Shown: positions 5,849-63,927 of the stretch, one piece after another
Layout: every line of letters begins with the position of its first letter
Numbering within the stretch: the stretch's first letter is position 1
DNA from: Halomicrobium urmianum
Lineage (GTDB): Archaea > Halobacteriota > Halobacteria > Halobacteriales > Haloarculaceae
Reading direction: 5' to 3'
Length of the DNA: 64,000 bases
Assembly: GCF_020217425.1 (NCBI RefSeq)
Contig: NZ_CP084091.1
Coordinates: 310,001-374,000, forward strand
The notes under the pieces: model-generated
What the model was told of the DNA's origin: nothing
What the model saw: the letters and a program-made list of their open reading frames with translations, nothing else
Database searches by the model: none
Made by a program: the position numbers and the translations under genes

Positions 5849-5865
5849 TGCTCTCTTGAATCCGG
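5849..5865. repeat. Solo IS-A end
   Basis: TGCTCTCTTGAATCCGG matches the IS-A terminal repeat (TGCTCTATTGAATCCGG) at 16 of 17 positions, with no transposase next to it. It lies just before the degraded N-terminus of the SelA-like gene. An IS-A insertion followed by imprecise loss is therefore a plausible cause of that damage. Confidence 0.5.
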
Positions 5866-7062
5866 TGAAGGCGGCAGCATTGACGAACAAACGTCTGTTC
5901 CCAGACCAAGCTCGCGGCGGAAAGTGAGAGGGTGGATCCTGCGAGATTGATAAGAAGCGGTCAAGGCTATGGCCGAGGCCTCAGAGTCGTTCATACGGAT
6001 CTCCGACCTCCAAGCCCGGGCCAGCGACCTCATCTCCACTGTCACCGGCGCTGAGGCCGGATACGTTACTTCCGGCGCCTCCGCCGGCCTTCTGCTGGCT
6101 GCGGCCGCCTGCATTGCCGGAGATGACTTGGATTCGATGTACCAACTACCGAATACCGAGGGACTGGCCGATGAGATACTCGTCCCCCGGACGCATCGCA
6201 CCGGTTACGATCACGCATTCCGTGCCGCGGGTGCCACTCTTGTCGATATCGGAACGAACGACCCCTTCCTTGGTACCGGGTCGCAGAGCGTCGAACCTTG
6301 GGAGATTGCCGAGTCGATCACTGAAGACACGGCCGCGGTTGCTTACCTCCAGAAGGAGTATACCGACCCGCCGCTCCCGGAAGTAGTCGACATCGCACAC
6401 GCTCACGATGTGCCCGTAATCGTCGACGCCGCCGCCGAAGTTCCGCCTGTCTCGAACTTCTCACGGTTCATCGACCAAGGAGCCGACCTAGTCGCGTTCA
6501 GTGGGGGGAAGGCAGTCCGTGGACCACAGACGACAGGGATCCTTGCCGGGCGGGCGGATCTCATCGAATCCGTGGCTCTCCAACAGTTGGATATGCACGC
6601 CGCAGACCCTGTGTGGGATCCGCCGACCGATCTCATCGACGTGGATCGATTCGACGGCGTCCCCCGGCAGGGTATCGGGCGGTCGCTGAAGGTCGGCAAA
6701 GAAGAACTCGCCGGCCTCATCACCGCACTCGATCTGTTCGTCGAGGAGGACCACGCCGCCCTCAGTGAGGAGTGGCTGGACCGGGCGACCCTGGTTGCTG
6801 ATAGGCTTGCATCCGAATCCGCGCTGTCGACACGGACGACCGAGGCTGACAAGGTATCGATCGCCCCGGAGGTTGTCGTCACCCTCGACGAGGAGGAGGC
6901 CGACCTCACGACGACGGACCTCGTGCTCTCACTCCGGCGAGAGACCCGCGGGTCTTCGTCGGCGCCGACAGCCTTCCGGACGACGCATTCACCATCAACC
7001 CGATGTGTCTGACCGACGACCAGGCAACCTACGTTGTCGATCGTATCAGGTCGTATCTATGA
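5866..7062 (+). pseudogene. SelA-like PLP-dependent enzyme, damaged at both ends
   Basis: The intact core (from ATG 5969) matches the SelA-like aminotransferase-fold family, whose relatives include selenocysteine synthase and D-glucosaminate-6-phosphate ammonia-lyase. Motifs are GYVTSGASAGLLLAAAAC, VIVDAAAEVPP and the PLP-lysine region LVAFSGGKAVRGPQTTGIL. The family normally begins about 40 residues earlier (…LIRPEAV.AMAEASE). Codons for EAVKA are in frame before the ATG but directly follow a TAA, and an LIR-like stretch lies in another frame, so the N-terminus is decayed. Near 6945-6952 the frame breaks: one extra G in the GGG run would continue as VFVGADSLPDDAFTINPMCL... to a stop at 7062. 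It probably once served sugar or amino-sugar breakdown. Confidence 0.75.
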
Positions 7063-57017: not shown

Positions 57018-58940
57018 TCACGGATGGCTGATCTCGAGCGTCCAGTTGCCGTCTGCCTCGACGTTGATCCAGGCGGGGCCGCCGGCCTTGTACGACCGCG
57101 AGTTCGAGAACTCGCCGCTGCGGTGGACGATGACCTCGCGACTGCCGTCCGCACCGTAGCCGTCGACGATGAACGTACCGTCGCCGTCGTGTGTCGCGAC
57201 GATCCTGACGTCGCGCTCCGTCCACAGCGGGCCGACGAACGCCGAGCCCGTGCCGGACGCCTCGACGGGGAGGTCCTCGAGGTCGTCAGCGTGGACTGCG
57301 GGCTGGGAGAGGTCGATCGACCACTCGCCGTCGGCGTCGACCTCGAGCCTGTAGGTGTCGTCATCGACGGCCATGATCGATTCGCCGCTCTCGTTTCCGG
57401 ACGTGGTCAGCAGGTTCTCGCTCCGTCCGAGCCCATCGGGTTTCGTCACGTCGACGGCGATCGCCTCGCCGTCGTGGGAGACGGTCGCGACGACGACGCC
57501 GTCGTCGAGCTCGAAGGTCGGCGACTCGCCCGAGCCAGTCCCTTCGAACGTGTGGGACTGGCCCGCCTCGAGGACGGTTCCGCTCGGGCGCGTTCCGACC
57601 GAGGGTTCGTCGCCGTCGAGGTCGAGCGTCCCGTCGACGAGATCGGAGGGGGTGACAACGTCGAGGTTGCGGTGTTCGATGTGATCGAGCAACAGTCCGA
57701 AGTCGTCGAGCGACATCCGGTTCCCGCTGTCCACGTCTTCCGAGTCGACGATCCGCGGAATCCGCAACACGGTGAGCAGGTCGTACTGGTCGGAGATGTT
57801 GAGGTGGCGGCGAACGCCGGTGTGAAGCGCGGGCCCCCAGATGAACGGGATCACGTGCATCTCGGTCGGCGGCACGCCGGTCGTCCCGGCGCTGTAGAGG
57901 AACGTCGACTCGTGGACGTCCCTGGCGACGTCGTAGGTCGTCGAATCCATTCGCCCGTCGGGAACGAACAGGTGGCGCGCCCCGTCCTCGAAGCCCTCGC
58001 TCGCGAGCGCGTCGCGCGCGTTCTCGAGGACCGATCGCTGCTGGTCTGCGGACTGGTCCGGCAGGGGCGTCGACACCGATGGGAGCGAACAGACGTCCCA
58101 GCCGCGGTCGCTGAGCTCGCTGAGTTCGTCGAGCCCCATGCGACCGCTGTCGCCGATTTGCTCGGGGGAGACCGGGACAGCACCACTCCAGTCGCGTTCC
58201 GCGAGCATCTCGGCGGCAATCTCGTAGTGCGATTCGTGGCCGCCGTGGAACGCGAGCACCACCGCGCCGTTGCTCGCCGATTCGGTTCGCCGGAGGTCGT
58301 CGACCAGCAGTTTGCTCGGTCCGTCCTCTGGTCCGTCCACGACGATGTTGATGCCGGTGACGTTCGAGAGATCCGGTTCGTCACCGGGTTTTTGCTGGTA
58401 GCCACAGTCCATTCGGAACCAGCCGTCGTACTCGTCCGGCACCACGCGAATGCTCGAGAGGCGCTCGCGCTGCGTCGGCGCGAGGAACTCGACGAAGATG
58501 CGATCGGCGGACGCCGGCTTGACCGCCATCGAGACGTCCCACCCCTCGAGATCGAGTCCGTCCGGGAACCGGAGCTCCACGCCGGCCGTTCCCTCGTCGC
58601 TCTCGATGACCGCCGCCTGCGATCCGCGTCGCGCCTCGTCGGGGGCGGCCGAGACCTCGCCGGTTCGTGGGGTCAACTCCTCGAGCGTCTCGAAGTCGAA
58701 GAGGAGCTCGCCGGATTCGATGGCAGGCCAGGTCGTGGAACCGGTGGCCGTGTCGTCCGTGGCGGTACTGGTTTCGTTCCCGCCGGCGGCGGTGCCGTCC
58801 GGAGTTTCGTCCCCGCCGGCAGCGCCGTCCGAAAGTACGTCAATACAGCCCGCGAGCGTCGTCGATACAGCGCCGGCACCGAGTGTGGCCAGTAGTTGCC
58901 GGCGAGACGAGCCGTCGTCCGAACCGCGTTCGGATACCAT
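57018..58940 (-). CDS. Polysaccharide-deacetylase-like lipoprotein
   Basis: This 640-residue exported protein has a lipoprotein signal (SSRRQLLATLGAGAVSTTLAGC), a Thr/Gly/Ser-rich linker, a beta-sandwich (ELLFDFETLEELTPR...) and a NodB-like barrel. At the normal metal site TFDDG the sequence reads LAFHGGHESHYEIAAEML, and the second site HT/S-x-x-H is not obvious. Residue loss suggests altered catalysis or a non-catalytic binding role, as in several haloarchaeal homologues. The last 200 residues are beta-rich repeats (DDTYRLEVDADGEWSIDLSQP, EADGNWTLEISHP), resembling surface adhesion modules. Confidence 0.7.
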   Translation of the reverse strand: MVSERGSDDGSSRRQLLATLGAGAVSTTLAGCIDVLSDGAAGGDETPDGTAAGGNETSTATDDTATGSTTWPAIESGELLFDFETLEELTPRTGEVSAAPDEARRGSQAAVIESDEGTAGVELRFPDGLDLEGWDVSMAVKPASADRIFVEFLAPTQRERLSSIRVVPDEYDGWFRMDCGYQQKPGDEPDLSNVTGINIVVDGPEDGPSKLLVDDLRRTESASNGAVVLAFHGGHESHYEIAAEMLAERDWSGAVPVSPEQIGDSGRMGLDELSELSDRGWDVCSLPSVSTPLPDQSADQQRSVLENARDALASEGFEDGARHLFVPDGRMDSTTYDVARDVHESTFLYSAGTTGVPPTEMHVIPFIWGPALHTGVRRHLNISDQYDLLTVLRIPRIVDSEDVDSGNRMSLDDFGLLLDHIEHRNLDVVTPSDLVDGTLDLDGDEPSVGTRPSGTVLEAGQSHTFEGTGSGESPTFELDDGVVVATVSHDGEAIAVDVTKPDGLGRSENLLTTSGNESGESIMAVDDDTYRLEVDADGEWSIDLSQPAVHADDLEDLPVEASGTGSAFVGPLWTERDVRIVATHDGDGTFIVDGYGADGSREVIVHRSGEFSNSRSYKAGGPAWINVEADGNWTLEISHP

Positions 58941-58995
58941 TACCCAGACGATGCCGCGTCGGGACCGTCATTATTGTGTGGATAAACGGGGGAGA

Positions 58996-59016
58996 GATTT
59001 GCTGACTCAGCAAATC
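58996..59016. promoter_or_regulatory. Perfect 21-bp palindrome before the 59058 gene
   Basis: GATTTGCTGA, one central C, then TCAGCAAATC. It lies 41 bp before ATG 59058 and is shared, with a single mismatch, by 62034-62054. It is very likely an operator for a dimeric regulator, and the HTH protein encoded at 62091 is a candidate. Confidence 0.7.
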
Positions 59017-59057
59017 GGAGTTGGACATTTCAACCATCACTGCATCGGTACACCTGG

Positions 59058-59516
59058 ATGTCACCGAGCGATTCGATCAGGAGACACCTGCCGACCCTCT
59101 CCGAAGCGGTCTCGTACCCCTTCGAGACGTGGCGGGGAACGATCGGGCTGGTACTCGCGACGTACGTGTTGTTGCTCCTGAGCGCGACGCCCGAATTCCC
59201 GCTCCCGACGCTCGGCGACGGCCTCTCCTGGCTCGAGTACGTCGTCGTCTCGCTTACGGAACCGGTCTACCGGACCGACGGCTGGACCGGGCTCGGGATC
59301 GGCGTCCTCTATGCCCTGCTCTCGGGCGCTGCAGTCGTCAACGCCGTCGCGCAACTGCGGGTCGCCGACCGCTCGAGTCGCACCAATCTCTCCGGCGTGG
59401 GGCCGGGACTCCTCGCGTCGGGCCGTGCGAGTTGTGGCGCCGGACTCCTCGGCTTTTTCCCGGAGCGGGCGGGCTATCCCGAACGACGTGCGCTCACGAC
59501 GGAGGCGACGCGATGA
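59058..59516 (+). CDS. Membrane protein of a two-gene cassette
   Basis: This 152-residue protein has four hydrophobic segments (GTIGLVLATYVLLLLSA, WLEYVVVSLTEPVYRTDGW, GIGVLYALLSGAAVVNAVAQL, GPGLLASGRASCGAGLLGFF). A Ser-Cys-Gly-Ala motif marks the last one. It overlaps the next gene by four bases (ATGA), so the two are translationally coupled. The cassette is preceded by the palindrome at 58996. Confidence 0.7.
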   Translation: MSPSDSIRRHLPTLSEAVSYPFETWRGTIGLVLATYVLLLLSATPEFPLPTLGDGLSWLEYVVVSLTEPVYRTDGWTGLGIGVLYALLSGAAVVNAVAQLRVADRSSRTNLSGVGPGLLASGRASCGAGLLGFFPERAGYPERRALTTEATR

Positions 59517-59995
59517 CGGGACGGCGATTCGGCCGCCAGATCCGATCGGACCGGCGAGCGATCGGCCGGGGAATCGCGGTCGGAATCGGCGTCTTCGTGT
59601 TGTTCGGGCTCGTTACTGGCCTCGTCCCGAACCCGCTGTACGTCCGGATGGTCCCGCGGACCCCGGTCGATTACCTGTTCCTGACGCTGACCGCGCTGCT
59701 GGCGGGCGTCTACGCCGCACAGCGGGTGGCGACCGACGTTCCCCAGGCCGGACTCGAGGGCGAAGACGGGAGCTCGAGCAGCGAGGATCGGTGGGCGATG
59801 GGTGGGCTGGTCGGTGGCTTTCTGGCCGTCGGCTGTCCGATCTGTAACGTCTTCCTGCTCGCGCTGTTCAGTTCGTCTGCGCTCATGACCTACTTCGATC
59901 CGCTTCGGCCGCTGCTCGGCGTCGTCTCCGTGGCGCTGCTGGCGGGGTTGATCTACGCCCGCCACAAACGCACGTGCCCGACCTGCGCCACGTGA
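59513..59995 (+). CDS. Membrane protein with CPxC motifs
   Basis: This 160-residue protein has four hydrophobic segments. In helix 3 a GCPICN motif follows LVGGFLAVG, and at the C-terminus there is TCPTCAT. Two CPxC sites suggest a membrane-bound thiol redox or metal function. The length and arrangement do not match DsbB or VKOR fully. The partner encoded at 59058 probably forms a complex with it. Confidence 0.7.
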   Translation: MTGRRFGRQIRSDRRAIGRGIAVGIGVFVLFGLVTGLVPNPLYVRMVPRTPVDYLFLTLTALLAGVYAAQRVATDVPQAGLEGEDGSSSSEDRWAMGGLVGGFLAVGCPICNVFLLALFSSSALMTYFDPLRPLLGVVSVALLAGLIYARHKRTCPTCAT

Positions 59996-60213
59996 TCGCG
60001 GACGCTCAGACGGTCTGCTGTGACGGTTTACTGTCGCACCCGCAGGACGAGTCGAGGGCGCGCCGGAAGTGACTGACGGGAGTCCGTATCGCTCAGAGTC
60101 CGTCCAGTCGCCGGGTTCGGTCTCGCGACACTCCTCTTTCGCCTCGCGCTCGCGTGGCCAGAGCGCTCGTCAAACGCCAAAACGAATGCGTGATTCCCGT
60201 GGTCGTGTCGAGA

Positions 60214-61974
60214 TCAGTTCGTGGGTACGGACTGTTCGACGGACGTCTGTTCCGTCGAGACGTCTTTTTCGACGACGAGGTCCTCGAGGACGAGGACGTC
60301 CAGTCCCATCCCGTAGAAGTCCTTGATCGCCTGCGTCGGCGTCCGGACGATCGGTTCGGCGTGGTCGTTGAACGACGTGTTGAGGACGACTGGGACGCCA
60401 GTGATGTCGGCGAACTCGGAGATGAGTCGGTGATAGCGCGGGTGCTGGTCCTCGCGAACGGTCTGGGGCCGCGTCGAGTCGTCGGCGGGGTGCAAGACGG
60501 CCTCGAGGTCGTCGGTCTTCGACGGCCGGACGTCGTCGGCGTCAATCATGAACGGTGCCGGCCCGCCGTCGACGAGATACTCCTCGGCAGCCGACTCGAG
60601 CAGCGACGGCGCGAACGGACGCCACTCCTCGCGATGTTTGACGAACCGGTTGACCCGATCGCGGGACGCAGCGGTTCGTGGATCGGCGAGGATGCTTCTG
60701 GCGCCGAGCGCCCGGGGTCCCATCTCCATCCGTCCCTGGAACCAGCCGACGAGGTCACCGTCCGCGAGCCGTTCGGCGACGTACCGCTCAAGGTCGTCCG
60801 GCTCTGCGTACTCGATCTTGTTCGTCTCGAGTGTCGATCGGATCTCGTCGGTCGCGTACTCGGGGCCGAGGTAGACGTCGGTCTGGCGGTCGACCTCCGC
60901 CGGGCGCTGCTGCGACCAGCCCGCACCGAGGGCGAGGCCGGCGTCGTGAGCGACGGGTTGGATGAAGGCGTCGTCGACGACCGGCGATTCCTGGACGCGC
61001 TGGTTCAGCTTGCAGTTGAGCGCGACCCCGCCGGCGAGCGCGACGTTGGTGGTGTCGAAGCGCTCGACCGCCGACTCCGCGATGTCGACGACGGTCTCCT
61101 CGAGCAGTTTCTGGGCCGTGTGCGCGAGGTCTTTCTCCCACTGGTCGAACGACCCGGGCGACTCCTTTCGGGGTCGGCCGAAGGCGCGCTCGAGCGTCTC
61201 GACGCCGTAGCCAGTCCCCCATCGCTTCGTCAGGTCGGTGACGTCGTAGTCGACGCCCGTGTCGATCAGACTCCGGAGGGCGGATTCGATCTCGGGGTTG
61301 TCGTCTCCGTACGGCGCGAGTCCCATCACCTTCCCTTCGCCGTTGAACATGCGATAGCCGAGATACTCCGTCACGGCCGCGAAGAAGAGGCCGAGGCTGT
61401 TGGGGTGTTCGTACGTGCGCACGCGCTGCAGCCCGGTTCTGTCGGCGTACCAGACGACCGTCGCGTCGTACTCGCCCTTTGCGTCGACGGTGAGGACGAT
61501 CCCCTCGTCGAAGCCCGAGGGGTGGAACGCACTCGCGGCGTGACAGCGGTGATGTGGGACCGTTTCGATCGGTGGCAGCGGCGTGCCGAACGACTCGAGG
61601 CGGGATTCGATCTGTCGCGTCGGCACGAAGCGGCTCCGAACCTGGCTGACGAGCGTTCCTTCCAGTGCGGAGAGCTTTCGGCCGAGCCCGGGCGCTCGAA
61701 TCGCGTCGGTCAGGTAGTGGGAGGCGATCTCGCTGCGGAGTGACGGATCGTAGGGGAGGAGGATGCGATCGATCTCCGCGATCTCCAGGTCGCGATAGTC
61801 GAGACAGGCCTGAATCGCACGGTCGGGGAACGTCTCAGTGGCGTGTTTCTCCCGCGTGTATCGTTCCTCTTCGACGCCGAACACGGGCGTCCCGTCTTCG
61901 AAGAGGACGGCGCTCGGATCGTGTTGGCCGTACAGTCCGATCGCGGGTTTAAATGCGAGGTGGTAGTCCGTCAT
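60214..61974 (-). CDS. NodU/CmcH-family carbamoyltransferase
   Basis: This 586-residue enzyme has the N-terminal Kae1-like domain (HDPSAVLFEDG, VPHHRCHAASAFHPSGFDEGIVLTVDAKGE, ALAGGVALNCKLNQR, DAGLALGAGW) and the C-terminal YrdC-like carbamoyl-binding domain (GRMEMGPRALGARSILADPR, VNRFVKHREEWRPFAPSL, PVVLNTSFNDHAEPIVRTPTQAI). These enzymes transfer carbamoyl from carbamoyl phosphate, via carbamoyl-adenylate, to sugars or other hydroxyl groups. Surface glycan or S-layer decoration is plausible. It is divergently transcribed from the HTH regulator, and the intervening DNA (61975-62033) lies beside the palindrome. Confidence 0.92.
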   Translation of the reverse strand: MTDYHLAFKPAIGLYGQHDPSAVLFEDGTPVFGVEEERYTREKHATETFPDRAIQACLDYRDLEIAEIDRILLPYDPSLRSEIASHYLTDAIRAPGLGRKLSALEGTLVSQVRSRFVPTRQIESRLESFGTPLPPIETVPHHRCHAASAFHPSGFDEGIVLTVDAKGEYDATVVWYADRTGLQRVRTYEHPNSLGLFFAAVTEYLGYRMFNGEGKVMGLAPYGDDNPEIESALRSLIDTGVDYDVTDLTKRWGTGYGVETLERAFGRPRKESPGSFDQWEKDLAHTAQKLLEETVVDIAESAVERFDTTNVALAGGVALNCKLNQRVQESPVVDDAFIQPVAHDAGLALGAGWSQQRPAEVDRQTDVYLGPEYATDEIRSTLETNKIEYAEPDDLERYVAERLADGDLVGWFQGRMEMGPRALGARSILADPRTAASRDRVNRFVKHREEWRPFAPSLLESAAEEYLVDGGPAPFMIDADDVRPSKTDDLEAVLHPADDSTRPQTVREDQHPRYHRLISEFADITGVPVVLNTSFNDHAEPIVRTPTQAIKDFYGMGLDVLVLEDLVVEKDVSTEQTSVEQSVPTN

Positions 61975-62033
61975 AGTTCTGCGATTGTGACGCTATCCTA
62001 GTCGACGCCGAGGGGCTTCAAGACAGCCACGGC

Positions 62034-62054
62034 GATTTGCTGGGTCAGCAAATC
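62034..62054. promoter_or_regulatory. 21-bp palindrome between carbamoyltransferase and HTH genes
   Basis: GATTTGCTGG, central G, then TCAGCAAATC. It is identical to 58996-59016 except for two central bases. It sits 37 bp before the preferred GTG start (62091) and 60 bp from the divergent ATG 61974, so one regulator could control both. The longer reading of the HTH gene would begin inside this palindrome, which speaks against that start. Confidence 0.7.
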
Positions 62055-62090
62055 GTGGCCTATTTGGCAACCAACGACGGTGTATACCGT

Positions 62091-62450
62091 GTGCAGCACG
62101 GTGGCTCTCCAAACTCACCCGAGATCTTCCAGATCCTCGCGGACGAATACGCGCGGCGGATACTCGTCGCGGCCGACACGGGTCCGAAGACCGCGAAGAC
62201 CCTGAGCGAGGAGTGTGACGCCTCCCTCACGACGATCTATCGACGCGCCTCGACGCTTCAGGACCTCGATCTCATCGAAGAACGGAATACGGTCGACGAG
62301 GACGGCGCCCACCGGAGCGAGTTCGAAACGACGCTCGAGGGGCTCCACCTCGATCTCACCGATGGCGAACTGGCGCTGACACTCGAGACGCGCGACGAGC
62401 TCGCTGACAATTTCACGTCGCTCTGGGGCGATCTCCGGGGTGACGACTGA
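62091..62450 (+). CDS. Winged-helix (ArsR-like) transcriptional regulator
   Basis: This protein of about 119 residues has a typical haloarchaeal wHTH. VQHGGSPNSPEIFQILADEY ARRILVAADTGPKTAKTLSE starts it, and ECDASLTTIYRRASTLQDLDLIEER is the recognition region (written in parts). The C-terminal part has LETRDELADNFTSLW. It probably forms a dimer and, by position, may bind the palindrome just upstream. GTG 62091 gives the usual family N-terminus. A TTG-started extension into the palindrome is less likely. Its stop overlaps the following ATG. Confidence 0.8.
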   Translation: MQHGGSPNSPEIFQILADEYARRILVAADTGPKTAKTLSEECDASLTTIYRRASTLQDLDLIEERNTVDEDGAHRSEFETTLEGLHLDLTDGELALTLETRDELADNFTSLWGDLRGDD

Positions 62451-62713
62451 TGGAAGCCTCGTTCATCATCGCCAAACTGATCACGCTCGTGTTGAGCCTC
62501 GTCGTCGCGTATCTGGCGTATCACGGCTACCGGCGAAACGGCCAGGCGACGATGCTATACGTCGCCGCGGGCTTCGTGTTTATCGGTGTGGGGGCGATCT
62601 GTGAGGGCCTGATTTACCAGGTGTTTCGGACGACGATCGTGTCCGCCGCTCTCGTCCAGGCGGCTGTCGTCTCGAGTGGAATGGTGCTCATCCTCGTCTC
62701 GCTGACGAGGTGA
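62450..62713 (+). CDS. DUF7521-type small membrane protein
   Basis: This 87-residue protein has three helices (FIIAKLITLVLSLVVAYLAY, MLYVAAGFVFIGVGAICEGL, AALVQAAVVSSGMVLILVSL). It overlaps the regulator stop (TGATG). Three-helix proteins coupled to wHTH genes recur in haloarchaea, where the pair may form a membrane-linked sensing unit. No reaction is known. The family label is from memory and should be verified. Confidence 0.7.
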   Translation: MEASFIIAKLITLVLSLVVAYLAYHGYRRNGQATMLYVAAGFVFIGVGAICEGLIYQVFRTTIVSAALVQAAVVSSGMVLILVSLTR

Positions 62714-63339: not shown

Positions 63340-63927
63340 TTACCGGGCCAGCACCTCTCGAGTCGTCGCTGCCAGCACCTCGTAGAACGGTTCGCGCGTC
63401 TCGTTCTCGACCCGTGTCAGGAACTCCGCAGTCCAGGCCGTGAGATGTTCGTCGCGGAACTGGTCGAGGTACTCGTCGAACCCCTCTTTTGCGAGGTAGG
63501 CCGCGAACTCCAGTTCCGTCGCGATGTGGTCGGGGAGGTCCGAGTGGTCCGGTGCGAGTCGGACGCCGAACTCGTCGTACCAACGCGTGACGGCCGTCGT
63601 GGACGGTCCCATGACCGGTCCGAGCCCGTCCGAGTCACTCCCGTCGCGGTAGACGCTCTCGTACGGTGGACACGGTGGTCCCGCTGGGCCGATAAACAGT
63701 CTCGTGTACTCGGTCCGGAGGTCACGGATGTCCACCGATCCGAAGTCCCCAACTACCGGAGTCAACTCGCCGGCCTCGGCAACTTCGACCAGTTTCTCTG
63801 TCGGTTCCCGCCAGCACTCGGCGAGGACAGCGTACGTGGCCCCGACGTTCGACACGAGCGTTTCGCTGTCGGCGCAGCGTTCCGACGATCGCTCCTGCTC
63901 AACGGGTGCATCGGTCCGTTCAGTCAT
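63340..63927 (-). CDS. TorD/DmsD-family redox-enzyme maturation chaperone
   Basis: This 195-residue helical protein has EYTRLFIGPAGPPCPPYESVYRDG near residues 72-95, the family's P-x-Y-x-S-x-Y region, and DHIATELEFAAYLA. TorD-like chaperones bind the twin-arginine signal of molybdopterin enzymes such as DMSO/TMAO reductase and guide cofactor insertion. It overlaps the preceding gene's stop by four bases, so the reductase operon continues to the right. Confidence 0.92.
   Translation of the reverse strand: MTERTDAPVEQERSSERCADSETLVSNVGATYAVLAECWREPTEKLVEVAEAGELTPVVGDFGSVDIRDLRTEYTRLFIGPAGPPCPPYESVYRDGSDSDGLGPVMGPSTTAVTRWYDEFGVRLAPDHSDLPDHIATELEFAAYLAKEGFDEYLDQFRDEHLTAWTAEFLTRVENETREPFYEVLAATTREVLAR

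Follow-up and report, generated by a model that had tools for sequence, protein, structure and literature searches.

Two palindromes in Halomicrobium urmianum as predicted operators of a local regulon headed by a wHTH protein with a DUF7521 membrane partner

Operators are known for few archaeal transcription factors. TFB-RF1 (PF1088) of Pyrococcus furiosus is an activator that recognizes the palindrome TCTG-N5-CAGA just upstream of, and at a conserved distance from, a weak BRE and TATA (PMC5937170). Its footprint runs from -47 to -70 relative to the start codon, it regulates its own two-gene operon and one further operon, and the arrangement is conserved across relatives; archaeal regulators usually repress when their site lies in the promoter or downstream of it, and can recruit TFB when it lies just upstream of a weak BRE (PMC5937170). 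In Bacillus subtilis, the membrane protein SdpI sequesters SdpR at the membrane (PMC1626106). CsmR (HVO_1209) of Haloferax volcanii, which has been compared with Lrp/AsnC regulators, controls motility and shape, has 65 binding peaks and recognizes the semi-palindromic TATCA-N4-TGATA upstream of BRE/TATA (PMC13286277). Deletion of CsmR raised its targets although the protein binds upstream of BRE/TATA (PMC13286277), so that an upstream position is an ambiguous sign of activation. Here, we analyse a 64,000-nt stretch of the Halomicrobium urmianum genome (the window). We find that two palindromes in it are, with a probability of about 0.6, private operators of a small local regulon, bound by a locally encoded wHTH protein that would be mainly an activator and would be tuned by its membrane partner. 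We call this a local one-component regulon, its regulator paired with a membrane partner. Beyond what a sequence-only reading of this DNA had proposed, our analysis points to use of each site in both directions, additional targets, a promoter geometry shared across the regulator family and a match between recognition helix and half-site.

The 21-bp palindrome, GATTTGCTG-N3-CAGCAAATC, is present in exact copies at 58996–59016 (predicted operator 1, GATTTGCTG-ACT-CAGCAAATC; full site GATTTGCTGACTCAGCAAATC) and 62034–62054 (predicted operator 2, GATTTGCTG-GGT-CAGCAAATC; full site GATTTGCTGGGTCAGCAAATC). In both, a 3-bp centre is flanked by perfect 9-bp arms; the single mismatched arm base that the sequence-only reading ascribed to the second copy appears when the site is read as 10-1-10, and is absent when it is read as 9-3-9. 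The positions given in that reading are borne out: operator 1 lies 41 bp ahead of the ATG (59058) of a two-gene membrane cassette, and operator 2 lies in the gap between the start of a carbamoyltransferase gene (61974, minus strand) and the GTG of the wHTH gene (62091, plus strand). Operator 1 also lies 55 bp from the start of a divergent lipoprotein gene (58940, minus strand), which that reading did not count. Because each site lies between divergent genes, a single site could serve promoters on both sides, and the pair covers four transcription units. A chance origin of the two copies, already judged improbable, is unlikely, since 100 dinucleotide shuffles of the window gave no match. The genome-wide search that had been proposed, in which an abundant motif detached from promoters would have spoken against a regulon, returned these two copies alone from the whole 4.25-Mb genome with up to 3 mismatches allowed, and the core TTTGCTG-N3-CAGCAAA was confined to the same two places at 0 or 1 mismatch.

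Searching a collection of 84,980 genomes with the wHTH protein yielded 41 related loci, mostly in Natrialbaceae and often plasmid-borne. Around them lie 65 sites with no more than 3 mismatches, where a Markov model predicts 0.0. The spacer between site and start codon is 36 bp for the regulator (24 of 26 sites), 41 bp for memA, the first gene of the membrane cassette (16 of 22), 56–59 bp for the carbamoyltransferase (8/8) and mostly 54–57 bp for the lipoprotein, and annotated plasmid records carry the same sites and spacers. Where the carbamoyltransferase gene has been relocated, it retains a site of its own (L012, L013, L015, L017 and L020). Outside the site and its TATA-like element, the sequence has diverged between relatives, as expected of a footprint under selection. 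Extra sites in relatives point to genes for a DsbA-like protein (PF13462, E = 3.8e-21, with PDB matches to BdbD/DsbA) at 48 bp in 5/6 cases and for an SCO1-like protein (PF02630, E = 1.2e-16) at 39 bp in one case. These spacers support a predicted regulon that also takes in the divergent lipoprotein gene here and the DsbA-like and SCO1-like genes in relatives.

Some related loci depart from this pattern. The site is weakened (3 mismatches) at the orthologous regulators of L006, L007, L009 and L010, and none was found just upstream of the regulator in L015, L026 and L034–L041. The last group, a distant clade with a divergent memB, has an imperfect TTTGGT-GTG-ACCAAAT upstream of the regulator in place of the usual palindrome. 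In one clade (L012, L017, L019, L020 and L021), the operator lies 150–177 bp ahead of memA rather than 41 bp, which suggests that memA has a long leader there or that a small gene lies upstream of it. In L033 (positions 5857–6240; the same locus as L084 and G076), from the genus of the window, a deletion has placed the regulator, from codon 40 on, behind the palindrome and promoter of the memA side, with loss of memA, memB, the carbamoyltransferase gene and the N-terminal HTH part of the regulator. When 116 genomes of the family were scanned with up to 2 mismatches, 25 contained a match. Exact sites directly precede regulator genes in G000, G008 and G009, and a further one in G103 is no more than 3 kb away from a regulator gene; many single matches had no regulator near them and were set aside as chance-like.

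The regulator (62091–62450, plus strand) is a 119-residue protein and the predicted operator binder, with a recognition helix at about residues 46–58 and a threonine at position 47. Its AlphaFold model, of low confidence (pLDDT 51.0), has a wHTH-like order of elements. It scores 28.6 bits against HVO_A0261_N (PF25213), for which the cut-off is 35, and is thus related to that family without formal membership. The sole solved structure that its profile matches by sequence is the archaeal wHTH regulator PH1932 (1uly, E = 8e-5, residues 9–101; also 2cwe), which at 192 amino acids against 119 is a structural relative only. The overlapping downstream gene (62450–62713, plus strand) encodes a small membrane protein, the predicted operon partner and candidate sensor, that belongs to DUF7521 (PF24365, E = 1.3e-18; 67.5 bits, cut-off 27). 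When genomes of the family (116) and of the order (155) were searched, the regulator proved to belong to a large set of haloarchaeal paralogues; the genome of the window alone encodes eight of them and nine DUF7521 proteins, with most of the genes side by side. An ORF for a hydrophobic, DUF7521-like protein of 87–113 amino acids directly follows the regulator gene in 55 of 57 cases, at -8 to +9 nt and typically with a 4-nt or near overlap, which predicts a single operon. Within the library searched, no paper on this regulator/DUF7521 family was found. The regulator shares 87% identity with a Natrinema protein and 49–64% with its L029–L041 orthologues, and we infer that the cassette reached the lineage of the window by horizontal transfer.

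TATA-like elements accompany the operators at set distances. The wHTH promoter has TATTTG (62061–62066, plus strand), 6 bp past operator 2 and 25–30 bp ahead of the GTG and conserved in orthologues; the memA promoter has CATTTC (59026–59031, plus strand), with xATTTC conserved 9 bp past the operator in memA orthologues; and the lipoprotein promoter has GTTTAT (58982–58987, minus strand), with GTTTA conserved at equal distance in relatives. Among the target classes, about 6–10 bp separate the operator end from the box, and the operator overlaps neither TATA nor start; across most of the regulator family, the box lies 11–13 bp past the right (core) arm of the operator, and the target classes are similar. 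This fixed distance places the operator directly upstream of the expected BRE. The arrangement, found before the regulator's own operon and before further targets, is that of TFB-RF1, a likeness in the way of working: the operator is a different one, one site here would serve divergent promoters, the targets are more numerous and a DUF7521 partner gene follows the regulator. CsmR, itself a small haloarchaeal winged-helix regulator, is similar in having its site upstream of BRE/TATA, with a motif that differs from the palindrome of the window.

We propose that a dimer of the wHTH protein occupies each palindrome, where it would adjoin, on the upstream side, the BRE/TATA regions of the divergent transcription units on either side: memAB and the lipoprotein gene at operator 1, and the carbamoyltransferase gene and the regulator's own operon at operator 2. 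Because the operators are placed just upstream of BRE/TATA, the protein is expected to act mainly as an activator that aids occupancy of weak promoters by TFB/TBP, and to autoregulate. We favour activation over repression because the geometry is that of TFB-RF1, for which activation has been demonstrated; here the sign would follow from position alone, and we hold it less firmly than binding. The DUF7521 partner would most likely sense an envelope signal, such as thiol/disulfide, sulfane-sulfur or copper stress, and release or restrain the regulator.

The main rival reading is that the wHTH protein is an SdpR-like autorepressor acting at the same sites, which would block TFB/TBP beside the BRE until the membrane partner, on a signal, sequesters it and induces the regulon. 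We regard this as unlikely, albeit the explanation to be taken most seriously after activation. A small autoregulator gene followed in one operon by a gene for a small polytopic membrane protein is indeed the arrangement of sdpRI, the operator abuts the BRE region and the SdpR autorepressor model (NF033789) is the regulator's best NCBIfam match. However, that match is weak and far under the model (19.5 bits, cut-off 100), the partner has no SdpI match at E 0.01 and matches DUF7521 instead, and, unlike in the SdpR/SdpI system, there is no toxin gene, the operator is upstream of the BRE and several targets are served. The operator is moreover clear of both TATA and start, and the elements TATTTG and CATTTC are weak, as expected for activated promoters.

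Whatever the sign, it is very probable that the 62091 protein binds the palindrome, as predicted from retention of the site upstream of its orthologues and of some paralogues, and from a recognition-helix residue that matches the half-site. The distant paralogues L108 and L144 (about 102–108 bits, against about 200 for orthologues) have the identical palindrome in the same place, L156 has it there with a single change, and many paralogues have a palindrome of their own about 50 bp upstream. The generalized operator TTnC-N7-GnAA occurs at -75 to -46 in 61 of 147 family representatives, with 1.0 expected from a Markov model and 0 found in two neighbouring zones; the other 86 are without it there. 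Palindromes with at least 7/8 matches at -75 to -36 precede 13 of 44 representatives (<75% identity), against 0.7 expected. Residue 47, which starts the recognition helix according to the secondary structure predicted in a low-confidence model, agrees with the half-site in all 55 representatives (<90% identity) that have a full palindrome: serine, threonine or alanine with TTGC..GCAA (24/24), proline with TTTC..GAAA (30/30) and glutamine with TTCC..GGAA (1/1). This rule was derived from a first set (14/14 clustered cases) and fitted 25 of 26 cases from held-out genomes, the exception being an asymmetric TTAC..GAAA site. The family tree has only about three switches of residue and operator, all concordant and one on well-supported branches, too few for the code to reach phylogeny-corrected significance. 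The match is therefore strong circumstantial evidence, short of formal proof, that the wHTH protein binds the palindrome; residue 47 tracks the half-site used, a correspondence that does not establish it as the cause.

Footprints alone cannot name the protein that makes them, and an unlinked or global factor could bind the palindromes, with the wHTH gene merely one of its targets. This is highly improbable, since the only two sites of the genome both lie inside the regulator's own cluster, sites cluster with the regulator in relatives as well and the helix residue agrees with the half-site in 55/55 cases with a full palindrome. Perfect inverted repeats might also be non-regulatory (repeat or MITE ends, terminator hairpins or chance), a reading that we dismiss as extremely improbable, given that only two copies exist in the genome, both between divergent starts, and that among the related loci 0.0 sites are expected by chance and start-codon distances are fixed in many genomes despite diverging flanks.

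To a broader reading we give somewhat better than even odds: the wHTH/DUF7521 pairs would form a large, undescribed haloarchaeal family of membrane-coupled regulators, each acting on its own palindrome at a set position just upstream of the core promoter, with residue 47 (S/T/A, P or Q) setting the half-site (TTGC, TTTC or TTCC, respectively) as a readable code that lets several paralogues coexist within a genome; in the clade of the window, they would control an envelope thiol-redox set. If so, operators of many haloarchaeal paralogues could be predicted from sequence, a sensor or anti-regulator function could be proposed for the DUF7521 membrane proteins, and an envelope thiol-redox regulon that is often carried on plasmids would be open to test.

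The predicted targets fit an output of this kind, an envelope redox set of Cys-rich membrane proteins, joined in relatives by DsbA-like and SCO1-like proteins. The membrane proteins memA (59058–59516, plus strand) and memB (59513–59995, plus strand) have conserved Cys pairs within hydrophobic segments; in memB, these are a GCPxCN motif and a C-terminal CxxC with invariant cysteines, and in memA the Cys pair is found in relatives. The two share a 46-column core (hhalign P = 0.0013, probability 18). Neither has a Pfam match above cut-off, the weak matches to MerT and DUF2162 were not trusted as identities, and the AlphaFold model of memB is of low confidence (pLDDT 57.6). Relative to 14 orthologues, memA of the window has lost 3 and 27 amino acids in frame (30 in total), and two near-invariant cysteines have become arginines. 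Its dN/dS against L003/L004 is 0.53–0.62, compared with 0.15–0.21 among relatives; the memB, regulator and DUF7521 genes of the window look constrained by this measure. The memA gene is thus probably degenerate, and half of what had been described as a membrane CPxC pair is probably broken here. The divergent lipoprotein (57018–58940, minus strand), the further predicted target of operator 1, is polysaccharide-deacetylase-like (PF01522, E = 0.006, under the cut-off), and its orthologues in relatives are annotated 'polysaccharide deacetylase'. The carbamoyltransferase (60214–61974, minus strand), of CmcH/NodU type, exceeds the cut-offs for both its N-terminal (PF16861, E = 2.4e-64; 174.6 against 24 bits) and C-terminal (PF02543, E = 4.8e-51; 216.4 against 27 bits) domains, and scores 133.6 bits against the NodU equivalog NF041651, far below its cut-off of 1000. 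Its gene is apparently frameshifted or split in L004, L008 and L020, and may be dispensable. The regulon as originally drawn (membrane pair, carbamoyltransferase, wHTH protein and partner) is supported by about 25 other genomes in which the same sites keep their spacers, relocated genes included, and needs correction in that it omitted the divergent lipoprotein gene and counted a memA that is probably broken.

The signal is probably envelope redox or metal, as the neighbourhoods suggest. In annotated relatives, neighbouring genes encode thioredoxins, CcdA, TlpA, SCO, multicopper oxidases, halocyanin, ZIP, TauE/SafE and rhodanese/MBL proteins, and distant bacterial relatives of memB adjoin copper/heavy-metal ATPases, CopY-type or metal-sensitive regulators, CcdA or DsbA. 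Proteins resembling memB at 34–42% identity are encoded on Arthrobacter, Rhodococcus and Tabrizicola plasmids near copper/thiol-redox genes (L159, L160 and L161). Elsewhere in the window, between 39647 and 49830, translations read by eye include halocyanin-like, rhodanese/MBL hydrolase, 5'-nucleotidase-like, TSUP-like and copper-ATPase-like ORFs. The DUF7521 gene is followed after 0.6 kb, at the edge of the window, by a gene for a TorD/DmsD-family chaperone (63340–63927; PF02613, E = 9e-28).
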